Source: a virus
IMG/VR virus record: IMGVR_UViG_3300022752_000253
Location: 1-31,991 of that record
Length of the DNA stretch: 31,991 nt
Direction: 5' to 3' (one strand)
The position numbers and the translations under genes were made by a program. The notes beneath the pieces were generated by a model, which had not been told where the DNA came from, did not search any database, and saw only the letters and a program-made list of their open reading frames with translations. Of this stretch, positions 3,452-20,709 are shown piece after piece; positions within the stretch are counted from its first letter, which is position 1; each line of letters opens with the position of its first letter.

Positions 3452-4114
3452 CTATAAGGAGACTATGTTTGCGCCAAGGATATAATCGTCTTGATCGTTT
3501 CCAGTTGGAATTAAGTCGAAGCAATCCTTTGTGGCAGAAGCAATTACGGCTGGGGATGAGTTTATTCCAAGGAAATTACGGCTGGACTTAATGATCCAAG
3601 GAAGCTCGGAGACCGATTTTGCGGTTATGGTTCGAAGCCCGTTTATGCTGTATTCTGGTGGGCAGAGAACAGCCAGATCGTCTTTCCCGTAAAGCTTTAC
3701 CGCCTTGACTACAACCTTCATCGGATCGTGCCGGACTATCTGACTGATGCCAAATGGGGCAACCAGATCGAATGTCCCAAGATTATCGCCTTCAATAATT
3801 GAATCAAAAACCACCCGCTCGCCCACCGCCTCCGGTGCGTATTCCCCGTAAACGAAATCTTCCCACCATTTGCCACTTTTCCTGTATTCATCGTAAAGTA
3901 GTGGCCAGACCTGCCTGTTGAAAATATGGTCGAATCCCTCGTACCGATCCTCAATCTTCTTGTGCTTTGCGTATGTCACGCACTTAAGGATATCCGCATA
4001 CTGATCCCTGCATTCTATGAATACTTCATTCCCCTTGTCGGACAGGTGCTTTGCAAGCGGGAGTAGCCGGATAACATCTCCCAGCCGTTCGTGATACTGG
4101 ATAAGGATCTTCAT
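3452..4114 (-). CDS. GT9-like (heptosyltransferase-type) glycosyltransferase, short (220 aa)
   Basis: The N-terminus MKILIQYHERLGDVIRLLPL matches the opening of ADP-heptose:LPS heptosyltransferase (GT9) proteins, where a beta strand is followed by GDxxxxxP and a helix. Near the C-terminus FLGINSSPAVIASATKD resembles the GxxSGPxHLAAA donor-binding helix of that family. At 220 residues it is much shorter than usual GT9 enzymes (around 330-350), so part of the acceptor half is missing or reduced. ATG at 4114 overlaps the TGA of the exostosin-radical SAM gene. It is the last gene of an ATGA-coupled run from 8194. It probably transfers a sugar within that pathway; donor and acceptor cannot be told. 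Confidence 0.6.
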   Translation of the reverse strand: MKILIQYHERLGDVIRLLPLAKHLSDKGNEVFIECRDQYADILKCVTYAKHKKIEDRYEGFDHIFNRQVWPLLYDEYRKSGKWWEDFVYGEYAPEAVGERVVFDSIIEGDNLGTFDLVAPFGISQIVRHDPMKVVVKAVKLYGKDDLAVLCPPEYSINGLRTITAKSVSELPWIIKSSRNFLGINSSPAVIASATKDCFDLIPTGNDQDDYILGANIVSL

Positions 4115-5973
4115 CCGGCGAAGTATTCAGTCACTTTATGCTCAAGCTTTTTCTCGACATCCAAAAGTTGTATTTTCCGACCCTTGTTCTTTGCAGATTT
4201 CTCGGCTATGTCGGCATTGCTCTTTGTGTAGGTATCGATCTGTTCGTTATCCATGTGGCCTCGTAGTCTTGCCGGAACTCCGCACCCCGTACAAAAGTGT
4301 TTGATCTGATCGGAAAAGGCCTGAATGGGTTGCTTCCACCAATCCAGAACAACCTCATGGCCGTTGTCGGTTCCCCTTGCCAGATCGAACGAGGCAGCTA
4401 CCTCGCAAAAATAGGCACGGAGTTTACCCCTGTTCTGAACAATCGATGCCGACCAGTCACGATTGATATCGCATTTGGAGATCTTTTCCCACATCTCTTT
4501 TTCTGGGTAGAGATCTTTAACCGCAGTAAGGAGAGGCGCATGGTGAGAATTGCCCACATAGAATCCTCCGTTAAATTTACGCTGGTTTACCATTACATTA
4601 TGTAGATCCTTCAGCTTTTCGTTCGCCCGTTCCTCGTTATGGGGATTCAGGTTTAAGGCTCCGAATGTATTCTCGATCACCTCACGATGCTTGAAATAAT
4701 TGTTCGTCCACAAGCCCCGCTGGAACTGGTTCGGCACTTCCTCCCTGAAGATCTCGCATAGCTTCTCAAACTGGGTATGAACGCATGGATTACCGCCGAT
4801 CATGGCTATGATGCCCTTGTAGTTTTTGAGACTTTGAAGTGCCAGCCTGAAGTTCTCCGGTGTCATTTCCCAGAACTCATCCTGATTCTTTAGTAGCCGT
4901 GTGCAGTTGGAACATGCCAGATCGCACTTGTTCGTAACATCCACGCAAATGATGTGCATGGACTCTGGGCCACGCATCTTGCCGATAGCGATGTCTGCAT
5001 ATGATCCGGCTGATAGTTTTTCGGTGATATAGTCCATAATAAACTCCTTTTGGAATAATTCCCTTGAAAGAGATATGCTTGTCGCCATAGCCCTCAATTT
5101 TTCAATGGGTATTTCAGACAAGATTTTATCCAAGGACATAAGATCCTTTTCCTTTACAACAATGCAATAATCCTCCCATCTGAATTTATCGGACATAGGC
5201 ATGACATAATCATCGGATAGGATCACCGGAATCGACCCGCTAAGAAGTGCCTCAACCATCCTGAACGACCATCTCCCGTAGCCAGCCGGACATAGGGTAA
5301 ATATGGATCGTGCCATAAGATCGTGGTATCCGATCTTTTCCCCAAGTGTTTCCTCGACCTGCTCTGGGGTTCCAACTACAAATCTTTCTTTCGGTGCGAC
5401 CTTCTGGAACTCAATTAGCCTACCTCCACGGATATGATCCGCAGGCAAATGAAGCTGGGTAAGTTTGCCCATAAAAGAGGCAAAGATATCCCGAAGGGCA
5501 ATATCCTTTTTTTCTATGTCTTTCATTTGATACGGCAGAATTGCAATGTCCTGAGGCAATAGGCTTGCGGTGGATTCAAGAACAATCAGTCTAAACCTGT
5601 CGTCCATCCATTTATACTTCTTGTTATAGGCACGGAGAGGGTTCGCCTGCTCGGTCATTTCGTGTCTCGATTCCGACCTCTGGCCGACATCTCCTGTTGA
5701 AACAAGAATGTGGTTCCCCCTTTCCAGATATAGGCATTTTTCCCTTATGAGATACTCTGGGTCGATATTGCTAAACTGAAGTCCGGCCATGAATAGTGGC
5801 ACAAAGAAGCAGTCAGCCTCGTCTGGATTCTTCGTCTCGAATTTCTTGAAGTGTTCGTAGATATCTTCTAGGTATTGCAGGTGCGGAATCAGCCTGTCAC
5901 GATTTGCATAGTAAATATTATCCCTGCGAATATTCGGATTCTGGATAAGATCGTGGTAGATAAATATTTTCAT
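4111..5973 (-). CDS. Exostosin-family glycosyltransferase fused to a radical SAM/SPASM-like domain (620 aa)
   Basis: I choose ATG 5973 (MKIFIYHDLIQNP), which overlaps the methyltransferase stop as ATGA; an upstream start at 5988 would add five residues. Residues 1 to about 335 are exostosin-like (GT47): EADCFFVPLFMAG early and FTLCPAGYGRWSFRMVEALL with GSIPVILSDDYVMP around 225-258. Residues about 340-600 are a radical SAM domain: the CX3CX2C cluster motif is C350, C354, C357 in TNKCDLACSNCTR, followed by a GGNPCVH motif in the place of GGEPxLH. Later cysteines C501, C523, C561 and C564 (HFCTGCG) could bind a second, SPASM-like cluster. A single chain joining a sugar transferase to a radical enzyme is odd. 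It may build or modify a glycan or glycopeptide on the virion or host surface; substrate unknown. Confidence 0.8.
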   Translation of the reverse strand: MKIFIYHDLIQNPNIRRDNIYYANRDRLIPHLQYLEDIYEHFKKFETKNPDEADCFFVPLFMAGLQFSNIDPEYLIREKCLYLERGNHILVSTGDVGQRSESRHEMTEQANPLRAYNKKYKWMDDRFRLIVLESTASLLPQDIAILPYQMKDIEKKDIALRDIFASFMGKLTQLHLPADHIRGGRLIEFQKVAPKERFVVGTPEQVEETLGEKIGYHDLMARSIFTLCPAGYGRWSFRMVEALLSGSIPVILSDDYVMPMSDKFRWEDYCIVVKEKDLMSLDKILSEIPIEKLRAMATSISLSRELFQKEFIMDYITEKLSAGSYADIAIGKMRGPESMHIICVDVTNKCDLACSNCTRLLKNQDEFWEMTPENFRLALQSLKNYKGIIAMIGGNPCVHTQFEKLCEIFREEVPNQFQRGLWTNNYFKHREVIENTFGALNLNPHNEERANEKLKDLHNVMVNQRKFNGGFYVGNSHHAPLLTAVKDLYPEKEMWEKISKCDINRDWSASIVQNRGKLRAYFCEVAASFDLARGTDNGHEVVLDWWKQPIQAFSDQIKHFCTGCGVPARLRGHMDNEQIDTYTKSNADIAEKSAKNKGRKIQLLDVEKKLEHKVTEYFAG

Positions 5974-6518
5974 ACGATTGTGTGCCAATACCTTTCTGTT
6001 ACCAATCTATTGGGTATAAGCTCGTCCACCGCCCTTTTTACGCCAGCAAATGCAAGATAATCATCTCCGGCAAGTATCCCTCCGGACTTAACCTTTTTTC
6101 TCCATTCCGATATGTCTGATTTCACCGCCTCATATGAATGATCCCCGTCTATAAATACGGCATCCAGACTTGCATCGTCATACATCCGGACGGCACGAAG
6201 GCTCTCTGCCCGTATCACATTTATATTGTTTATCACTGGCTCAAGATTCTTGAGAAACTTTTCGAATAGGCATCCGTTCTTTATGTCTTCCATGTTCTGA
6301 TGTTCCGCAGATCCAAGCCAAGTATCGATAACATCGACCCGCATTTTTTTATGCTGTGCCTCAACTGCCAAAAATGATGTGCTTCTTCCAAGAAAAGCAC
6401 CTATCTCCACTATGTGTCCTCCGGCTGGAGTAACCTCAAAAATTTTTCGGTACATGTCTATGTATAAAAACCAATTTTCACTTCCAAAGATATCGCTGTC
6501 CCAATAGTGATTTATCAT
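5970..6518 (-). CDS. Class I SAM-dependent methyltransferase (Methyltransf_24-like, 182 aa)
   Basis: The SAM-binding loop is HIVEIGAFLGRSTSFLA (residues 35-51), followed by the acidic strand VDVIDTW (61-67) and the diagnostic LDAVFIDGDHSYEAVKSDI (118-136) and SGGILAGDDY (145-154). That last pair is the mark of the CmcI/macrocin O-methyltransferase type (Methyltransf_24) that methylates sugars or small molecules, using a metal-binding Asp. Length is normal for a minimal catalytic domain. It overlaps both neighbours by ATGA and sits between two glycosyltransferase genes, so O-methylation of a phage-made sugar is the simplest reading. Neither glycan nor position of methylation can be inferred. 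Confidence 0.82.
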   Translation of the reverse strand: MINHYWDSDIFGSENWFLYIDMYRKIFEVTPAGGHIVEIGAFLGRSTSFLAVEAQHKKMRVDVIDTWLGSAEHQNMEDIKNGCLFEKFLKNLEPVINNINVIRAESLRAVRMYDDASLDAVFIDGDHSYEAVKSDISEWRKKVKSGGILAGDDYLAFAGVKRAVDELIPNRLVTERYWHTIV

Positions 6519-8194
6519 GGATTCCTCATTTTAAAAATATGCTCTCCGATGGCATAATTTGTAACGGAGTTATGCTTTTTAAATACTTCGTCCTGACTCT
6601 CCCCAGTCCAGAATGGGTTTCTATGCTCAAATACAAGATCACGGGCATCCACCTGAATTTCCTTTGTCCGTAGCGTGAACTCGTTGTCGGAGAAAATACC
6701 ACTACATTGTGCGTATTCTGGGTGAAATAAATGTCCTCCAAGATATTCCAATGTTTTCTTTGTGCAGATTGCCATACAAAGCAGATCGTCCTTCCTGTGT
6801 CCGTCAGATACCGCAAGCACGGCTGGCCTTTCTGGGTCTGGAAGTCTTTTCCTAATTTCATCATCCCACCCCATAAATGGAACGAAATCGTCCGAAAGCT
6901 GAACAATATACTTTCCTTTTGCATTTTGGGCGCATGCATTCCACGCCCCAATGCACTTTCCATTGGGAGTTATTATCTTTTCATTTCCTCCGTATTCAAA
7001 ATTATCCTCATCGACCCCTATAATATGCTGGATGTTGTTCGGTTTGCTAGCATTCGACAACCAGATCCATCTTGTATGATTGAACTTATCGGGTCTGGCC
7101 GTTGCATGGCAAAGGGTAATATCCACATCGCCAAAATTCTTTCTCCTGTCCTCCTGTATTCCCGAAACGATGTCGTCCATCTTTAGAACTCTGGCGCATC
7201 TTTCATAAAGATCAGGTGCTTCCCAGTTATAGACGGAATCTTTTGTAGTCCAATAGGCCACATTCGGCCTTGGGATCATCGATGCAGATCTGGCCAAGGC
7301 TAATGCCTCACGATAATTCCGTCTGGAATAATAATCCTCTGCAATGTAGAAAAGTGCCTCGGATCTATCTGGCTGTAATGCGTATGCCCTGAAAAGCTCC
7401 TCTCTTTTTGCAACTGGATCTGCAAGGCATCTGCCTATGATCGTATGGCACTGCACCCGCATGATAATATCCAAATCCTCGAAAGCAATTGCCGTCTTTG
7501 CCCACCGGATTGCTTCCACATATTTTCCTGAAAGAAAGTATTCATCGGCTTTATAATATGAATGAATTGCCGATCTTGAAAGGCTAGCGTCCAGAATATT
7601 GTGATTTCTGTCCGCACTAGCCTTCTTATATCCAATTGGTGAATGAACGATTAGTCCTGATGGGGTTCCTATTGCCTTGGACGACTCTTTTTTAAATGGC
7701 TTTAGTTGTTCGTGGACTGGGCCAAACCACTTGAATTCTCCACGCTTGGTTATCCTCTCCCGTATCGGGCAGAGGCCAGCCGCCGGCACTGAGTATCCAG
7801 CATAAATGCACTCATGGTCAGTAACCCTTTTGGCTATCTCAAAAAATCCCTTTTCTGCGCCATCCACAAGAAGATCATCCGCATCGAACCACATACACCA
7901 GTCTTTTGTGCATGCATCCAGAGCCTTGTTCCTTGCGTCCGCAAAACTATCCAGATGCTCTAGGTGTCCAGATCCCTCCCTGTTATTATAAACAACAACC
8001 TTCGCATTAAACTTTTTTGCAACCTCTTCTAGAATTGGCAGGCCTTCTTCCGTGTTCTTTCCCATTGCAGAGCAAAGCACGATCTCATCAGGCTTTAGTG
8101 CAAGCATCGACTCCAATGATCTTGCAATATATTTAGAGGCGCATTCCCTAGAAACAATGGCGTAGAGTGACAAGCTGAATGGGAATCTGTCCAT
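6515..8194 (-). CDS. Two-domain GT2 glycosyltransferase with central TPR-like region (559 aa)
   Basis: Residues 1-190 are a GT-A glycosyltransferase: LSLYAIVSRECASKYIARSL at the start, then FADARNKALDAC and the DxD-type WCMWFDADDLLVDGAEKG at 99-116. Residues about 205-335 are helical TPR-like repeats (YKADEYFLSGKYVEAIRWA, LFYIAEDYYSRRNYREALAL). A second glycosyltransferase-like domain starts at about 356 (DITLCHATARPDKF) and carries GAWNACAQNAKGKYIVQLSD followed by DFVPFMGWDDE at 436-446, the place of its metal-binding acid pair. The enzyme may therefore add two sugars in sequence or act as a small polymerase. Its stop overlaps the methyltransferase start (ATGA). Sugar donor and acceptor are unknown. 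Confidence 0.82.
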   Translation of the reverse strand: MDRFPFSLSLYAIVSRECASKYIARSLESMLALKPDEIVLCSAMGKNTEEGLPILEEVAKKFNAKVVVYNNREGSGHLEHLDSFADARNKALDACTKDWCMWFDADDLLVDGAEKGFFEIAKRVTDHECIYAGYSVPAAGLCPIRERITKRGEFKWFGPVHEQLKPFKKESSKAIGTPSGLIVHSPIGYKKASADRNHNILDASLSRSAIHSYYKADEYFLSGKYVEAIRWAKTAIAFEDLDIIMRVQCHTIIGRCLADPVAKREELFRAYALQPDRSEALFYIAEDYYSRRNYREALALARSASMIPRPNVAYWTTKDSVYNWEAPDLYERCARVLKMDDIVSGIQEDRRKNFGDVDITLCHATARPDKFNHTRWIWLSNASKPNNIQHIIGVDEDNFEYGGNEKIITPNGKCIGAWNACAQNAKGKYIVQLSDDFVPFMGWDDEIRKRLPDPERPAVLAVSDGHRKDDLLCMAICTKKTLEYLGGHLFHPEYAQCSGIFSDNEFTLRTKEIQVDARDLVFEHRNPFWTGESQDEVFKKHNSVTNYAIGEHIFKMRNP

Positions 8195-8230: not shown

Positions 8231-8365
8231 CTATTCTTCTAGAGGTTCCCAAGCTCCCATTGTCGGGGTTTCCGGATACTTTGTTTCAGGTATTTCAGGA
8301 CTTTCATATGGCCTACTGCAACCAGACAAATACATAAAAAGCACTATTAGAATAATCCTAGTCAT
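8231..8365 (-). CDS. Tiny proline/glutamate-rich lipoprotein (44 aa)
   Basis: ATG at 8365 lies inside the 3' end of the DUF1796-like gene (8-base overlap) and is preceded by AGGAAAGG at about ten bases. The peptide starts MTRIILIVLFMYLSGC: one basic residue, a hydrophobic core and the lipobox LSGC, with the lipidated Cys at residue 16. The mature part is about 29 residues, acidic and proline rich (PYESPEIPETKYPETP). This is a convincing signal peptidase II substrate. Small phage lipoproteins of this kind include Rz1 spanins and superinfection-exclusion lipoproteins; the proline-rich tail recalls Rz1, but no Rz-like partner overlaps it. Position in the sugar-modification operon allows a surface-exclusion role. 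Function is open. Confidence 0.75.
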   Translation of the reverse strand: MTRIILIVLFMYLSGCSRPYESPEIPETKYPETPTMGAWEPLEE

Positions 8366-9002
8366 TTTTATACAGCCTTTCCTGTATCAATTTTTTGCAC
8401 CCATCCCATTTTGAGAATGGGCTTTCTGGGCTTTCAATGCAATAGATGTCATCTGAAATTTTGCCTTCTGGAATTACTGCAAGTCCATCTAGGGTCAAAA
8501 TCCTTGATCCAACAATATAGAGTAAGCTGAAATTTCCAAAGCCAAATACTTTAAGACTTTCCTTTATTTCATCCTGTTCCTTGTGGAACATATCAAAAAC
8601 ACCATCCATCCCAACCCCCTCAAGAAACCTAGCTGGCTCTGGATTGAAGTCCCTTAACCTTACAAAAAGGATATGTCCACCAAAGTCCCTTAAGCATATA
8701 AATCTTTTGCATCTATCCGTCATTTCCCTGTGGGCATTTTCAATGTCTGCCCTCTTCTGGTGTCCTATCCAAAATTCTAGCAGTTGCCCATAAAAACCAA
8801 CCCTAAATGTGTCCTCTTCGTCCCTGTTATTTTCTGGGCAAAGTATCTTCTTAAATTCTGTCTTTAGCAAAAACAAAAGATTCTTATGGGAACACCTGCC
8901 AAAATCAAACAAGCACCTCTCTGAATCAAATAATTCTCCCATCATCCTTACTGGATAACAGGATGCCCCAAGGCTAACAGCCTTATTTTTCTTGGGCATC
9001 AA
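8358..9002 (-). CDS. DUF1796-like putative cysteine peptidase (214 aa)
   Basis: The N-terminus VSLGASCYPVRMMGELFDSE followed by LFDFGRCSHKNLLFLL matches the start of the DUF1796 family (SLGxxCxxAxxL...PFDW...), annotated as putative papain-like cysteine peptidases; the candidate nucleophile is C15. The rest (FICLRDFGGHILFVRLRD, EQDEIKESLKVFGFGNFSLLYI) fits the alpha/beta body of that family. Members often sit in polysaccharide or surface-glycan gene clusters, which agrees with the glycosyltransferases downstream. ATG at 9002 overlaps the stop of the LamG-like gene. Activity has not been inferred beyond family resemblance; whether it cuts, transfers or only binds is unclear. Confidence 0.6.
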   Translation of the reverse strand: MMPKKNKAVSLGASCYPVRMMGELFDSERCLFDFGRCSHKNLLFLLKTEFKKILCPENNRDEEDTFRVGFYGQLLEFWIGHQKRADIENAHREMTDRCKRFICLRDFGGHILFVRLRDFNPEPARFLEGVGMDGVFDMFHKEQDEIKESLKVFGFGNFSLLYIVGSRILTLDGLAVIPEGKISDDIYCIESPESPFSKWDGCKKLIQERLYKND

Positions 9003-9748
9003 AGTCCATACTTTGTTCTAAACAATGAAATATAGGCATCAAGCTGTCCTGTTGTTAGCTCATAATCAAACAGAACAAGCTCTGCCAAATATGATCGAGA
9101 CGGCTGACCAAAACTGCTGTCTATGCCAACAACCATATCAGACCTTGATGTATTTCCAGCACCAACAACAGATGAAGAAATCTCCTCATCAATTCCATCA
9201 ACCTTTACCTGTCTTATTAGTGTTCCAGTTGCATTTGCACTATATGCAAAAATTGCAGGCTCTTCTGGATAAACATAGCTATAATAATTAGATGCTCCAA
9301 AATATGTCCCCCAATATAAAATCCCTGCCTTAAAGTCTGCTGAAACACAAGAATAAAGCCCGCCTCCACTACATTCAATAATGCAACCATATTGCCCAAG
9401 TCCAGTAACAGGAAGGGCAACTGCAACAACTGACTTTATGCTTGTTGCATCTGGTGATGCTTGCATTAGGCTTGAAACAATCCCACTCTTATTATCATAG
9501 ACAAAGAACAACGCTGGCTTTGATTGTAGGCCAGTTGCATAATAAACAGGCCCGTAGTCACCGGATGGATACAATGTTTTCCCATTCCCACTTTTATCTG
9601 CCCACTCTGTAACATACCCGCCACTTTGCGTCACCCCATAATCAGCACCCCACCAAGCATAAGGAGTGGCTAGGCTTGATCCAGCCTGTGCAACAGCAGT
9701 AATTGGCCTTCTACCTACCGCAATCCGGTTCCCGAAGCCGTAGCCCAC
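8999..9748 (-). CDS. LamG/concanavalin-like lectin-fold virion protein (249 aa)
   Basis: The motif series is that of LamG-like jelly rolls: AWWGADYGVTQSGGYVTEWA (31-50), DKSGNG (51-56), a GLQSKPALFF strand, central beta strands, and the closing AELVLFDYELTTGQLDAY followed by RTKYGL at the C-terminus. In phages this fold usually forms a sugar-binding or protein-protein decoration domain on fibres or the capsid. It begins five bases after the small capsid-associated gene at 9753 and ends with an ATGA overlap into the DUF1796-like gene, so it links the head genes to the modification genes. It may be the virion display or target of the sugar pathway; that is inference. No signal peptide is present. 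Confidence 0.75.
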   Translation of the reverse strand: MGYGFGNRIAVGRRPITAVAQAGSSLATPYAWWGADYGVTQSGGYVTEWADKSGNGKTLYPSGDYGPVYYATGLQSKPALFFVYDNKSGIVSSLMQASPDATSIKSVVAVALPVTGLGQYGCIIECSGGGLYSCVSADFKAGILYWGTYFGASNYYSYVYPEEPAIFAYSANATGTLIRQVKVDGIDEEISSSVVGAGNTSRSDMVVGIDSSFGQPSRSYLAELVLFDYELTTGQLDAYISLFRTKYGL

Positions 9749-10123: not shown

Positions 10124-11086
10124 TTACGAGGCGGAGTAGTTCGTGGTGATGAGTTCCACCGAAGTCTCATCGATCACCTTGACCGCACGATTCGAGCGGA
10201 CACGGAGGATGTTGGAACGGCGGATTTCGTCACGATAGCTCTCGGTGACGAAAGGAGCGGAGGTGTCTTCGCTCCACACAATCGTCCGACCCACGCCACC
10301 AGCGGCGAAGTCACCACCAGCAACATAGCCAACGGCGATGTAGGTGCTGGGCAGGATGAAGCCACCGGAGAAGGTAGCACCCTTAGCCGCGGTGTTCTTT
10401 GCGGCCTTGCCGACCAAGCACTTCTCAACGCCAGCCACATTCGCAATCTCCTGCTCGGAGAGCAAGCGAACGCTGTTCGAGGCAACAACGCCGAACATCT
10501 GATTCTGCGCCAGCGGGGAACGCCGGATCAGATCAAACACTTCCTGATTCATAATGACCGCATTCGGAATAACTCCGTTCTTGAGGAGACGCTGTTTCGC
10601 AGCGGCCACATCAGCGGGGAAGTTGATCGTGGAGAGGTTCGTGTTCGTATAGTTCACTAGCGGGTTAGTCGCCGTGAAGGTTCCGGTATCGAACAGGGCC
10701 GAAGCCACATCAACCTCGTGTCCGATGGTGATACTGCGGAGCAGAAGCTTCGCAGTTTCGGTTTCCAGTCCGAAGAAACGAGACACATCGGCGGCGAGCG
10801 CATCCGGCACGACCTCCTCCAGTCCGAATTCGTTGCAGGTAAAGTTGTCGTTATCGAAGGCACGGGAGGTGCGGGGGTAGGAGCTGCCGGGAGCCACTTT
10901 GGAGGCATCCGAATTCAGAAGCTCGGCATTGCCGAGTTTCAGCTTCAGATACTGACCAGCACGGACGGAGCTATTATAGACGGGGAACACTTCCGAGCCG
11001 ATGAAGCCCTGATCGGCGTTCGCCGCTTGGATGATAGCCGTGGTGATGTCGCCACGGAGGGTTGCGCCAGAGGTGAGATAACTCAT
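10124..11086 (-). CDS. Major capsid protein (lambda E/HK97-fold type, 320 aa)
   Basis: Length, position after protease/scaffold and decoration genes, and sequence pattern identify the main shell protein. It opens MSYLTSGATLRGDITTAI, has the helix-rich region around LEEVVPDALAADVSRFFGLE (about 93-112), PNAVIMNQEVFDLIRRSP in the middle, and closes with the conserved strand region SAPFVTESYRDEIRRSNILR and AVKVIDETSVELI. The start ATG 11086 has an AAAGGA Shine-Dalgarno with ten-base spacing. Codon use is GC-rich compared with the surrounding accessory genes, as for a highly expressed gene. A strong terminator follows. The HK97 fold is expected from the family, not visible directly. Confidence 0.88.
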   Translation of the reverse strand: MSYLTSGATLRGDITTAIIQAANADQGFIGSEVFPVYNSSVRAGQYLKLKLGNAELLNSDASKVAPGSSYPRTSRAFDNDNFTCNEFGLEEVVPDALAADVSRFFGLETETAKLLLRSITIGHEVDVASALFDTGTFTATNPLVNYTNTNLSTINFPADVAAAKQRLLKNGVIPNAVIMNQEVFDLIRRSPLAQNQMFGVVASNSVRLLSEQEIANVAGVEKCLVGKAAKNTAAKGATFSGGFILPSTYIAVGYVAGGDFAAGGVGRTIVWSEDTSAPFVTESYRDEIRRSNILRVRSNRAVKVIDETSVELITTNYSAS

Positions 11087-16331: not shown

Positions 16332-16448
16332 TTACTTTTTGGATTCTCTTTCGGCAAGAATCTTTTTCAATTCTTCCGTAACGCCATCCAGAAAGTCATC
16401 GTCTATTCTGTCCATGCTATCCGGAAGATTATCATTCGATTTTTCCAT
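16332..16448 (-). CDS. Tiny acidic protein after the polyvalent gene (38 aa)
   Basis: ATG 16448 begins MEKSNDNLPDSMDRIDDDFL, a short acidic peptide ending in a charged helix (EELKKILAERESKK). GGGAGA stands about six bases upstream. It overlaps the last 17 bases of the polyvalent gene in another frame, so it is translated as a coupled add-on. It could be an antidote or packing partner for that protein (the kinase module is zeta-toxin-like); this is only a suggestion from position. Confidence 0.55.
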   Translation of the reverse strand: MEKSNDNLPDSMDRIDDDFLDGVTEELKKILAERESKK

Positions 16449-19400
16449 ATGTCTCCCTTATGGGTGCGTCCCGACCCTGCACCCTTTCTGCGTTCCCGTC
16501 AATTGAATATCCGATATCTGCAATCCCTTCCTTGGTAAGCCTGCTCCAAGTATTGCGAGCCTTTTCTGCCGAACCTTTAATGTAGCGGTACGGAACCCAG
16601 CGACCATTCGGCTTGTTGAATCTGGCCGATGCCCGTTTGAGTGCGACTTTATCATCCACATCCACATGAACTAGGCCGATGGTATAGCCCAAGGATTTCA
16701 GCGTCCTTGCCATTCCGGCAACCTTGTCCGAGTTCTTTCCGGTGATGTCCAGAAGAACATTGTGCCGTTCCTTGACCGCCTCTGGGAAGATCACTTTCTC
16801 TGCCAGAATGGATGATTCCTCATGGAAAGCTCCGGCATTCCAGCCCTCGAACCCCTTGGATTTTGCTTTAATTGCGTCTGGGTCAATCTTTGTGGTTTCT
16901 TTCCCGCCGAGAATCTTTTGTGCAAATGGCCGTCCGGTTGTGGTTTTACCACTGGCCGGAGATCCCATAAGAATCACTGCGATTGGATTTTCGGATTTGG
17001 CATTCGGGTTTAGCTCCGATGCCTTAATCTCATCGATCCATTTTTTGTGTTCTGGAGTTGGATTCTCAAAGGTCTTCCTGATGTCCCTGTCTTGGACATA
17101 GCGGGACGGGTCTCTGAGAGACCATCTAGTGGCTTCTGCAAATTCAGGATCTATGCCCTCGGCCTTCGCCACTTCGTCACGAAGTTGGCGCATTTTCCGC
17201 ACCGCTTCTTTGGCCTTTGGCTCGTTCTCCAAACGCTCTATTTCTGCGTCAATTTCCTTCAGAAGTTTCTCCTGATCCTTCTCGGACTTATCCTTTGTGT
17301 CGGATTCCTTCTTTCCCTTACCTGCTCCACCGCCACCACCTCCACCTCCTTTGGCACAAGTGTTTCCTTCCTTAAATCCTCCAGATCCGGTTCCGCAGTT
17401 TAAGTCTATCCTGTTCCCGTTATAGCTGAATGTTGTTTGTTTCTTTTTTGGGGCATATATAACCTCATTTGCATCCCACCCCTGAATTAAGTCAGCTATA
17501 TTTACAACTTTTTTAAATATCTTATCTACTGCGGATCTTATATGAAGTCCTGCATGTTCTTTGTTTAATGCCGCAAAATCTCCATCCCTAATTTCAGATG
17601 GAGCAGCCCTATAAATGGTAATTTCTTCTGCGTCTTTCGGTATTTTATTATATTTTAGTATATAGTCTTTATCTGGAGAATCTTTAAGCCTTCTGTCTTC
17701 CATTTTTCCATCAACTGCCTGTTGCCTTATTTCTGAATCATATCCTGATATTTTTATATTTTCTTTTGTTGAGCTACCACTCCATCTTCCAGACTCGTCC
17801 CTTGGCTGGCTGGGGTCATAGAATTCAGTTGCGTTATTATATGAAAACTTCTTTGTTACAGATGGTGGATTCGGGACAAACTGCTTACCCTTTTTTGCAC
17901 CTTTGGCCTTGCTCCTATTCGCAGAAGCTTTTTCAGCCGGAGTAAGCTTGTCCCATACCCGTGACGGCAGATATCTTTTTGTAGGCTTCCCACGCTGGAT
18001 TGATTTGCTATTGTCGCTAGTGCGCCACTTCTCTTTAGTCCATTTCTTCAGTCCGGCCTGCTCTTTGGTTCTTTTTCCGGTATAACCGCCACCAGCTTTT
18101 TCGTAGGCCTGTGCGACAAGCTGTGCCTTTCTTGCCGACCACTGCCCAGCTTTCCCGCCTTTAGTCCCACGCAAAATTCTGTTTTTAATCCTTTCACGAA
18201 GCTTGGGTTTTGTATATGCAGAAAACTTTCTCTCTTTGCCCTGACCCTGAATAGCCGCCGTTGGGATTGTTCCGGCTGGCGCACCACCACCCCCGATTGC
18301 ATAGGCCAAGTTTTCGTCCTCCTGTCCTTCTGGGATCTCGATCAGAATGGGAACATAAACATACTTGTTTCCGTCCTCAAGTTCCTTGGTTGCCAGAGGT
18401 TTTGGCTTGGGGCCACTTTCATAAACATATTTTCTAATCGAATCAAAGTCAAAAATATCAAACTTTTTTATGGAGCTAGGCGAAACTGCGCCGTCTTTAA
18501 TGAAAATTTTGGAAACAGCCGCTAGTCCAGTTTTACCCATCTTCTGCGCTTTTGTCGTAGGAATGTTGTCCGCAACGCTTTGAAATCCTTCAGCCAATAC
18601 GCTCACAATGCCGATAAGAGTTTTACCCTGTATCTTTTGTTTGCCTGCTGTGGCACGAAGCACTCCGTACTCCATTGCAAGATCCAAGCTGTCCGTTGAG
18701 TAAACTTTACCACCACCCCAAACTCCGGACTTTGAAGGGAGAATGCCATTCTCCTTAATTGACTTTAGCGCAGTTGCGGATGTTCCGTGGTAGAGTATTG
18801 TTGCTTTTGCCGTCTCCTTGCTTGCCTTTTCTGGATTTTCTCTTGCCCAGCTTGGGGTCATGGTTGTACCACCACCTCCTCCAGCACATGTATTCCCCTC
18901 TTTGAAACCTCCAGCACCAGTTCCGCAATCTAGCTGATATGCGCTCCGGTTATAATGAAGCCAGATCCCTCTGGCAAATCGGTGACGAGTTCGAGTCGGG
19001 AACTTGGTTTCGTAGTCTGTAATGACTCTCCGGTAGGCTTGTTCTCCTTGGATTCGGCTGTCGCCCCCAATGAATTCACCGACTCCTTTAATGATTTGTC
19101 CTGTTGCATTTGCTACCTCCAATACAGAGCTTACTTTGGAAAGCAACTCTGATCCTTTGTCGAAAATTGTGACATTACTTTTGCCACGATCCTCGAATAT
19201 TGTTCTAAATTTAATTCCATTTTCTGAAAGTATCCTACGCATGTCGTCCATCCCTTTTGGGGAAAATATTTTGTAGATGGAGTCCTGTCCGTCACTTTTG
19301 TTCTGGAATGCAATAACCGCTTTTTGCTTCATCAGGGAACCAAGCTTTGCCGCCGTGTACGCAATTTGATCGAAGTCTTGTGCGTTCCTTAACTCGATCT

Positions 19401-20709
19401 TAATTGCATTCTCTGCCCCATCCTCCCAGTCTCCGACTGCGCTTTTAAAATCCCCCTCCATTCCCTGATCCCTAACCACATCTTTTGCCATGCTTACTGC
19501 ACGGGCATGCTCGGATGAGGATATCATTTTTACCGCATCCTTAAATGATGAGTCCTCCTTAATGCTAGGTGATACGAATATACCTCCGGATTCGCCCCCC
19601 TTGGCGCAGGTATTTCCCTCCTTAAAGCCACCCGCACCAGTACCGCAGTCTAATTCTTTTTTATCTTGTATTGGGCCACCAACAATCCAAGCATCACATG
19701 TTCTTAACGAGGCGCATTTAAAATCAAAAATCTCGCAATATCCCAAGTCCCCAGCCTGCTCTACCTCCTGTGCGTCATATCCGATGCCCTTGCTTATGCA
19801 GTCCATGAGCCTTTTAGTTTTATTAAATCCGGCACAATTTCCGCATAGCATCGTCTTGGCTTCTTTGACAGATCCTCCAAAAATCTTTGCCTTCTTCGAC
19901 CAATATTCATCGTTAGGCTCTTTGGGGTTTGCGGGGCCATAATGCGCCACATCGATAGCCTTTTGCCTATTCTCAAGATTTGTTTTGATATCTTGTGTTG
20001 GCAGTGGACATGAGTCCCCATCCTCAAGATCTGCCTGCGAAAAATTATTCTTATCTTCGATGTAGTCTCTTATTGATACAGCAAGCACATCTGCCAAATA
20101 GTCGATTACTTCTTCCGGACTTGGATCTGCCTGAAGATTAGTCTTTTTATATATTGCCCCTAATTGAGGCTTTCCAATTTTTGCCCTAATCGCATTTGAT
20201 ATCTGCCTACCCCCACCCTCAGACCTATATTCTTCGACTGCACCCCTAAAAAATCCCCTCAGGGCAGAGGCGGCAGAATAAATTGGCACAAATTCGGGTG
20301 CAAATATTGCTGTTCCTAGAATTTTAAACCTATCACTTTTAAGCCCCCTTAACGCACCAATCGCCCCAACCCCAGTTATTTTCAATGTGCGACCAACGAC
20401 ATTTAATAGTTTTTTACCATCATCAGTTTTAAGCCATTTTACAATATCCGATGTTTTGCTTGCTCCATATTTTCCTGCAATTTTTGCCCCGCCAACTGCC
20501 TTAACAACTGCATTTACCCCCATCCTTACCGCTTCTTTGGCGACATCTGCCTTGGGGTTTTCTTTCTTTATTTTTTCAGCAAGTTTCCTGCCAAGAAAAT
20601 CTATGGATGACTTGGCTACTTTGGCGCATGTATTGCCAACCTTGAATCCTCCGGCTCCTGTTCCGCAGTCCAACTCAATTTTCTTTGAGTTATAAGAGAG
20701 CAGTATCAC
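16432..20709 (-). CDS. Polyvalent virion-associated multi-effector protein (1425 aa)
   Basis: GTG 20709, with GGGGAG upstream, follows the portal by three bases. Modules in order: linker 13-30; hydrophobic Gly/Ala-rich helices (about 100-160); Cys-rich domain 230-345 (CGNC at 289-292, CEIFDFKC at 325-332); linker 353-370; unknown alpha/beta 380-575; linker 593-610; ADP-ribosyltransferase-like 615-765 (ILYHGTS, KVYSTDSLDLAMEYG); DUF5872-like basic domain 829-955 (YTKPKLRERIKNRILRG, GGKAGQWSARKAQLV); a second ART-like domain 985-1090 (ITIYRAAP with R1034, NEVIYAP with E1082) entered through the linker DPSQPRDESGRWSGS; linker 1103-1120; coiled coil 1133-1185; zeta-toxin-like kinase 1240-1425 (Walker A GSPASGKTT at 1249-1257, DITGK). 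Family logic suggests it is packed in the capsid and injected. Function is inferred. Confidence 0.75.
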   Translation of the reverse strand: MILLSYNSKKIELDCGTGAGGFKVGNTCAKVAKSSIDFLGRKLAEKIKKENPKADVAKEAVRMGVNAVVKAVGGAKIAGKYGASKTSDIVKWLKTDDGKKLLNVVGRTLKITGVGAIGALRGLKSDRFKILGTAIFAPEFVPIYSAASALRGFFRGAVEEYRSEGGGRQISNAIRAKIGKPQLGAIYKKTNLQADPSPEEVIDYLADVLAVSIRDYIEDKNNFSQADLEDGDSCPLPTQDIKTNLENRQKAIDVAHYGPANPKEPNDEYWSKKAKIFGGSVKEAKTMLCGNCAGFNKTKRLMDCISKGIGYDAQEVEQAGDLGYCEIFDFKCASLRTCDAWIVGGPIQDKKELDCGTGAGGFKEGNTCAKGGESGGIFVSPSIKEDSSFKDAVKMISSSEHARAVSMAKDVVRDQGMEGDFKSAVGDWEDGAENAIKIELRNAQDFDQIAYTAAKLGSLMKQKAVIAFQNKSDGQDSIYKIFSPKGMDDMRRILSENGIKFRTIFEDRGKSNVTIFDKGSELLSKVSSVLEVANATGQIIKGVGEFIGGDSRIQGEQAYRRVITDYETKFPTRTRHRFARGIWLHYNRSAYQLDCGTGAGGFKEGNTCAGGGGGTTMTPSWARENPEKASKETAKATILYHGTSATALKSIKENGILPSKSGVWGGGKVYSTDSLDLAMEYGVLRATAGKQKIQGKTLIGIVSVLAEGFQSVADNIPTTKAQKMGKTGLAAVSKIFIKDGAVSPSSIKKFDIFDFDSIRKYVYESGPKPKPLATKELEDGNKYVYVPILIEIPEGQEDENLAYAIGGGGAPAGTIPTAAIQGQGKERKFSAYTKPKLRERIKNRILRGTKGGKAGQWSARKAQLVAQAYEKAGGGYTGKRTKEQAGLKKWTKEKWRTSDNSKSIQRGKPTKRYLPSRVWDKLTPAEKASANRSKAKGAKKGKQFVPNPPSVTKKFSYNNATEFYDPSQPRDESGRWSGSSTKENIKISGYDSEIRQQAVDGKMEDRRLKDSPDKDYILKYNKIPKDAEEITIYRAAPSEIRDGDFAALNKEHAGLHIRSAVDKIFKKVVNIADLIQGWDANEVIYAPKKKQTTFSYNGNRIDLNCGTGSGGFKEGNTCAKGGGGGGGGAGKGKKESDTKDKSEKDQEKLLKEIDAEIERLENEPKAKEAVRKMRQLRDEVAKAEGIDPEFAEATRWSLRDPSRYVQDRDIRKTFENPTPEHKKWIDEIKASELNPNAKSENPIAVILMGSPASGKTTTGRPFAQKILGGKETTKIDPDAIKAKSKGFEGWNAGAFHEESSILAEKVIFPEAVKERHNVLLDITGKNSDKVAGMARTLKSLGYTIGLVHVDVDDKVALKRASARFNKPNGRWVPYRYIKGSAEKARNTWSRLTKEGIADIGYSIDGNAERVQGRDAPIRETYGKIE
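17350..17403 (-). repeat. CGTGAGGF linker, copy 4 (before kinase module)
   Basis: Encodes LNCGTGSGGFKEGNTCAK (residues 1103-1120), followed by a polyglycine run. It is preceded by FSYNGNR, like the other copies. Codons differ from the other copies at many third positions. Confidence 0.9.
18880..18933 (-). repeat. CGTGAGGF linker, copy 3 (before first ART-like module)
   Basis: Encodes LDCGTGAGGFKEGNTCAG (residues 593-610), followed by a glycine run and preceded by HYNRSAYQ. Same residues as copy 2 apart from the last, with different synonymous codons. Confidence 0.9.
19600..19653 (-). repeat. CGTGAGGF linker, copy 2 (after Cys-rich module)
   Basis: Encodes LDCGTGAGGFKEGNTCAK (residues 353-370), preceded by PIQDKKE, so this copy lacks the SYN lead-in. 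Cysteines at 355 and 368 keep the 13-residue spacing of all copies. Confidence 0.9.
20620..20673 (-). repeat. CGTGAGGF linker, copy 1 (N-terminus of polyvalent protein)
   Basis: Encodes LDCGTGAGGFKVGNTCAK (residues 13-30), preceded by LSYNSKKIE. It follows immediately on the start codon region, so it may serve as a leading tag. Confidence 0.9.

Follow-up and report, generated by a model that had tools for sequence, protein, structure and literature searches.

The window, that is, the whole 31,991-base virus record that was analysed, encodes on its minus strand a single frame of 620 codons, running from ATG to TGA, whose product joins an exostosin-type glycosyltransferase (GT47) to a radical SAM enzyme. 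The frame is the third of four cassette genes that overlap by ATGA. The features of the cassette and of the head protein gene near it are listed below.

10124..11086, minus strand: major head protein, upstream of the cassette (PHROG 1005, 3.7e-26)
6515..8194, minus strand: glycosyltransferase with GT2, TPR and a second GT-A-like region (Pfam GT2, 2.9e-12, in two stretches; TPR-type matches; PHROG 13126)
5970..6518, minus strand: small-molecule methyltransferase, TylF-like (Methyltransf_24; Pfam, 4.4e-18; ATGA overlap with the fusion gene)
4111..5973, minus strand: GT47-radical SAM fusion protein, 620 aa (open frame, Pfam, ten further contigs, AlphaFold model m504799320faf)
5002..5973, minus strand: GT47 (exostosin) domain, residues 1-324 (Pfam PF03016, 1e-29; EXT2 fold match)
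5245..5292, minus strand: GT47 signature CPAGYGRWSFRMVEAL, residues 228-243 (phmmer alignment to EXT1; invariant in 8 fusions)
4960..5001, minus strand: junction YADIAIGKMRGPES, residues 325-338 (matches the N-terminus of stand-alone radical enzymes, alignment A2)
4504..4959, minus strand: radical SAM core, residues 339-490 (Pfam; SpeY/BtrN fold)
4903..4926, minus strand: C350-X3-C354-X2-C357, expected ligands of the SAM-binding [4Fe-4S] cluster (invariant in 29 family members)
4783..4797, minus strand: GGNPC, residues 393-397, where a GGE motif is usual (alignments A2 and A4)
4174..4503, minus strand: predicted Twitch region, residues 491-600 (DSSP of model m19dd53f2f7c2, conservation and the topology in PMC6231123)
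3452..4114, minus strand: 220-aa protein, a short GT-B (GT9-like) by eye only (conserved in ten contigs)

The 220-aa protein gave no Pfam match. Downstream of the cassette are three small genes that are conserved in relatives. Two frames lie at 8358-9748, between the head protein and the glycosyltransferase: one is weakly similar to DUF1796 (a putative papain-like peptidase, 4.6e-4), the other contains a virion-structural segment (PHROG 10356), and neither clusters with any gene of the other fusion contigs. A 1425-aa frame at 16432-20709 shows ATPase/polynucleotide-kinase-like matches in its C-terminal part and several small PHROG blocks; its counterparts in relatives range from 827 to 1443 aa.

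The initial annotation had described an exostosin signature, a CX3CX2C motif and later cysteines in one chain, and we found all three in the 620-aa frame. It had also raised an assembly error, or homologues that always occur as two separate genes without association, as grounds for doubting the fusion. The domain search for other exostosin-radical SAM fusions that it had called for revealed the fusion in ten IMG/VR contigs besides the window's, the carriers forming a group of aquatic bacterial viruses. Complete fusions are present in nine of them (L002-L006, L010, L014, L015 and L017), while the fusion of L052 is cut by the contig end. Five full-length relatives with 72-73% identity were obtained in the first scan, and the rest in a scan with the radical half. 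Identity among the fusions is about 60-66% in the GT47 half and about 85% in the radical half, indicating that the halves differ in pace. The dN/dS values, calculated from fusion pairs with unsaturated dS, were 0.05-0.11 for the GT47 half and 0.03-0.07 for the radical half, indicating strong purifying selection on both. An assembly artefact was ruled out by the recurrence of the fusion in these ten contigs and by the purifying selection on its two halves. Separate genes without association are likewise not what the scans revealed: the GT47 half alone as a query retrieved eight loci, all of which were the fusion loci themselves, and the radical half, where it is separate, still adjoins other glycosyltransferases. 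No match was found in the plasmids searched. In the contig of L017, a TET/JBP-type dioxygenase gene (L117:10055-11008) is inserted between packaging genes and is absent from relatives.

The GT47 half matched Pfam Exostosin_GT47 over residues 2-287 with 104.2 bits against a cut-off of 33.4. In the full-length AlphaFold model (pLDDT 83, pTM 0.75), residues 1-324 are predicted to adopt the GT-B exostosin fold, with matches to EXT2 (Z 22.6, 273 residues, 3.0 Å) and EXTL3 (Z 19.4). Within the signature, R238 and E241 align with SFRxxEAL of EXT1 in the phmmer alignment and are invariant in 8 fusions. A match of residues 227-411 to PHROG 21308 was dismissed as evidence for a second GT47 fusion because the GT47 half alone fails to match this family. 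At the other end of the domain, the stand-alone radical enzymes start with, for example, MNAEYAMYTMRSPHQ, the counterpart of which in the fusion is ADIAIGKMRGPES of the junction.

The Pfam Radical_SAM profile matched residues 346-426 slightly under its cut-off (E 2.6e-5; 24.9 bits against 29.5). The later conserved cysteines are C397, C406, C501, C523, C561 and C564. The Twitch auxiliary site has one cysteine on each side of a beta-hairpin and two after helix alpha2' (PMC6231123). According to DSSP of the predicted model, C501 precedes a hairpin, C523 follows it, and C561 and C564 are where the following long helix ends. These four are candidate ligands of an auxiliary cluster in the Twitch arrangement, which bears out the auxiliary-cluster site proposed initially as far as the model can tell. 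When the radical domain was modelled alone (AlphaFold model m19dd53f2f7c2; pLDDT 90.4, pTM 0.89), the top fold match was SpeY (Z 17.6, 3.4 Å, 255 of 302 residues), followed by BtrN (Z 13.2), and all other matches were at 11.1 or lower. The Foldseek ranking concurs, with SpeY nearest (E 4.8e-9), and residues 334-620 of the full-length model match SpeY (Z 16.5) with the same order of fold matches. The structure prediction advised at the outset thus assigned both halves to named folds. With the motif, the auxiliary site and the fold all in place, the radical half as modelled is a Twitch radical SAM enzyme.

Peptide-acting Twitch/SPASM enzymes known to form C-C or C-S bonds have either a RiPP recognition element or a SPASM domain with seven cysteines. 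A SPASM maturase was rejected because cysteines are missing: the motif CX9-15GX4C-gap-CX2CX5CX3C-gap-C is incomplete, there being just four auxiliary cysteines, and CX5CX3C after C561-X2-C564 is absent from the sequence and from the family alignment. Nor is there an N-terminal RiPP recognition element, the place being taken by GT47 in the fusion and by about 20 residues in the stand-alone members. The formation of C-C or C-S bonds, one of the reactions suggested earlier, is therefore unsupported. Among the named NCBIfam radical SAM families, the best match was tetraether synthase Tes (1.3e-6), which was far below the cut-off and confined to the core motif region; likewise, searching PDB sequences with profiles made from the radical alignments yielded Tes and chance matches, and nothing else. 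The radical half had no match in 50,697 phage records, in line with the earlier remark that no standard phage family is known to have this pairing. Two family members deviate, each through decay or sequence error: in L048:132-1040, Phe replaces the second auxiliary cysteine, and in L114:1567-2490, the radical SAM gene is split into two frames.

Scans with the radical half gave 45 and 70 viral loci, many of them in common and most encoding stand-alone enzymes of about 300 aa. The stand-alone phage enzymes (L018-L051 and others) are 57-67% identical to the radical half and have the same cysteines but lack GT47. Their carriers have another backbone: the terminase differs, the portal is SU10-like and the head protein is of another family. 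The operon consists of genes for UDP-glucuronate decarboxylase (UDP-xylose synthase; match to UXS1, E 2e-110), GT2, the radical SAM enzyme, in some cases a methyltransferase, and terminase. The stand-alone radical enzymes of L104, L105 and L080 have as neighbour a methyltransferase that is 43-44% identical to the window's and belongs to its family; the combination of this methyltransferase family with the radical enzyme occurs on two unrelated phage backbones. In a 137 kb phage contig, a 1102-aa frame without a Pfam match (L028:4585-7893) lies immediately upstream of paired genes for a stand-alone radical SAM enzyme and a GT2.

Of the distinct loci, 35 extend at least 2 kb to either side of the gene; in 27 of them, a glycosyltransferase of the tested families is nearby or in the same gene. 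None of these families was found near L054, L056, L070 and L072. In the phage contig L112 and at the bacterial genome locus L132, one gene encodes the radical enzyme together with a C-terminal GT2. At L058, a GT61 gene adjoins and genes for RmlB and a sugar nucleotidyltransferase are beside it. Cellular members are rare, being present in 3 of 197 genomes of L058's family (one close, two distant) and in 2 of 385 of L056's class. The distant SAR11 members L130 and L131 keep the auxiliary cysteines, with GGEP instead of GGNP; by inspection, genes for a flippase, an RmlD-like protein, an aminotransferase and a nucleotidyltransferase surround them, a setting that reads as an O-antigen-type cluster. 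In the bacterial contigs L054, L056 and L057, the radical SAM enzyme has a C-terminal part of 250 aa that is methyltransferase-like by eye; it had no Pfam match and was therefore not counted as a methyltransferase.

The tree, built from 45 radical domains, has a branch (97/98) with the stand-alone enzymes on one side; the C-terminal fusions form another (100/99), and the GT47 fusions group together, apart from the outgroup. The SAR11 outgroup has a very long branch, too long to root the tree or to indicate which architecture is ancestral. Given that both the partner family and the side differ (GT47 at the N-terminus, GT2 at the C-terminus), at least two separate joinings of the radical module to glycosyltransferases are needed.

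The initial annotation had suggested that the protein couples sugar transfer with radical chemistry on the same acceptor. The link to sugars held up: the GT47 and GT2 fusions, the neighbouring GT2, UDP-xylose synthase, methyltransferase or GT61 genes, and the SpeY/BtrN-like fold together support a family bound to sugar chemistry. We tentatively propose, with a little less than even confidence, that the fusion is a bifunctional glycan-tailoring enzyme in which transfer by GT47 is followed by radical oxidation to a keto-sugar. Judging from its predicted fold and active-type motif, the GT47 domain would use a nucleotide sugar as donor and attach its sugar to a growing glycan. The [4Fe-4S] cluster of the Twitch domain would then cleave SAM, and the resulting 5'-deoxyadenosyl radical would take a hydrogen from a carbinol carbon of the transferred sugar or its neighbour. 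The auxiliary cluster, if its fold and ligands are a guide, would accept the second electron, as in SpeY and BtrN, and a keto-sugar would result. Completion of the glycan would fall to the other glycosyltransferases and to the methyltransferase, which is translationally coupled to the fusion and may cap the product. The GGN that stands where GGE is usual, the low sequence identity to SpeY and BtrN, and the few family loci at which no glycosyltransferase was seen speak against this proposal.

For the radical step, inversion without net oxidation comes closest as a competitor to oxidation, although we consider it unlikely. NeoN and HygY are epimerases of this kind, in which a cysteine thiol quenches the radical from the other face and thereby inverts the sugar carbon. 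Suitable cysteines outside the candidate ligands exist in the family: among 29 members, C397 is nearly invariant and C406 is invariant or nearly so. However, L055 and L114 have Val in place of C397, one distant SAR11 member has Ile in place of C406, and the two nearest folds, SpeY and BtrN, are dehydrogenases. The epimerisation mentioned by the initial annotation thus fits the fold matches less well, yet stays a close rival: NeoN uses Cys249 as the hydrogen donor on an intact oligosaccharide (PMC10991966), and the title of a study cited there describes HygY as a Twitch epimerase with latent dehydrogenase activity.

As for the acceptor, a virion protein is most likely, and virion decoration is favoured, since head and tail genes flank the cassette on the same strand. 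In both phage lineages, it is embedded in virion morphogenesis genes (head and tail, or packaging). Such a late-gene position does not prove virion decoration. The glycan could instead belong to the host envelope (O-antigen or capsule), altered during late infection or in a lysogen so that competing phages are blocked, as the sugar clusters around the cellular relatives L130, L131 and L058 might suggest and as pelagiphage glycosyltransferases are read in PMC7029224. The surrounding morphogenesis genes speak against this, as does the fact that no membrane polymerase or acetyltransferase of the O-antigen-conversion type was seen, and we regard the envelope as a rather unlikely target.

A protein as the substrate of the radical domain, either RiPP-like or a virion side chain, with GT47 glycosylating the product, is improbable. 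Many Twitch/SPASM enzymes act on peptides, and the fold matches of lower rank include SuiB, anSME and PqqE, but both domains typical of such enzymes are lacking, as described above, and the stand-alone operon includes a UDP-xylose synthase. A role in DNA base hypermodification is highly improbable. In its favour, the L017 record, alone among the nine fusion-carrying records covered, encodes a TET/JBP dioxygenase (5.4e-25). Against it, the gene for this dioxygenase is far from the cassette, the other thirteen of the 14 records searched, among them the window and the 54 and 56 kb relatives, lack such a gene, and none of the 14 (which may be incomplete) encodes a thymidylate-synthase-type enzyme.

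Extending the proposal of transfer followed by oxidation, the fusion might be the first member of a transfer-then-oxidise class, in which one polypeptide adds a sugar and then converts it by radical chemistry into a keto- or inverted sugar, decorating the virion with a sugar novel to phages; the radical module would be a portable glycan-tailoring part of phages and bacteria, joined at least twice to glycosyltransferases of different families. We consider this extension possible but doubtful. If true, an oxygen-sensitive radical step would enter virion or envelope decoration. Orphan radical SAM enzymes seldom offer a hint of their substrate class; here the domain fusion gives one, so that the reaction can be tested directly.

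Each half is of a known kind. The literature searched contains no description of their pairing, of the GGNP subfamily or of the portable radical glycan module, and we found in it no exostosin-radical SAM phage protein and no GT47-radical SAM enzyme. EXT1, EXT2 and EXTL3 share with the phage half a GT47 Pfam match above the cut-off and the fold. The phage half retains SFRxxEAL of EXT1 and has the R/E pair that is absent in EXT2, the inactive partner. EXT proteins pair GT47 with GT64 and are not known to pair it with a radical SAM domain. The closest viral structure to the GT47 half is the exostosin GT47 protein of Synechococcus phage S-SKS1 (M4QPL1; 33% identity over 103 residues), which is encoded in a sugar gene cluster and, at 281 aa, lacks a radical SAM domain. 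Marine phage accessory genes include radical SAM and glycosyltransferase genes, and the parts of PMC7029224 and PMC7150976 that cover them do not describe a GT47-radical SAM enzyme.

SpeY, the Twitch radical SAM dehydrogenase of spectinomycin biosynthesis (PDB 7wzv, 7wzx and 7x0b), shares its fold with nearly the whole phage radical domain. It oxidises a sugar hydroxyl of a spectinomycin precursor after glycosylation. Its PDB entries contain no fused glycosyltransferase, whereas the phage enzyme has GT47, and the radical half carries the GGNP motif, unlike SpeY. BtrN (2-deoxy-scyllo-inosamine dehydrogenase; PDB 4m7t) likewise has the Twitch fold; its four auxiliary cysteine ligands are paralleled by the four candidate ligands in the phage radical half, while its substrate is a free cyclitol and it lacks a glycosyltransferase partner domain. 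Sugar-oxidising or -inverting radical SAM enzymes are known from aminoglycoside antibiotic pathways. SpeY and BtrN are only 12-14% identical in sequence to the phage radical domain, and in the Twitch/SPASM subfamily sequence-network similarity does not settle the reaction (PMC6231123). BtrN oxidises a cyclitol alcohol with an auxiliary cluster fully ligated by four cysteines (PMC9012708). If our proposal is true, the sugar-radical chemistry of aminoglycoside pathways extends to polymeric glycans.
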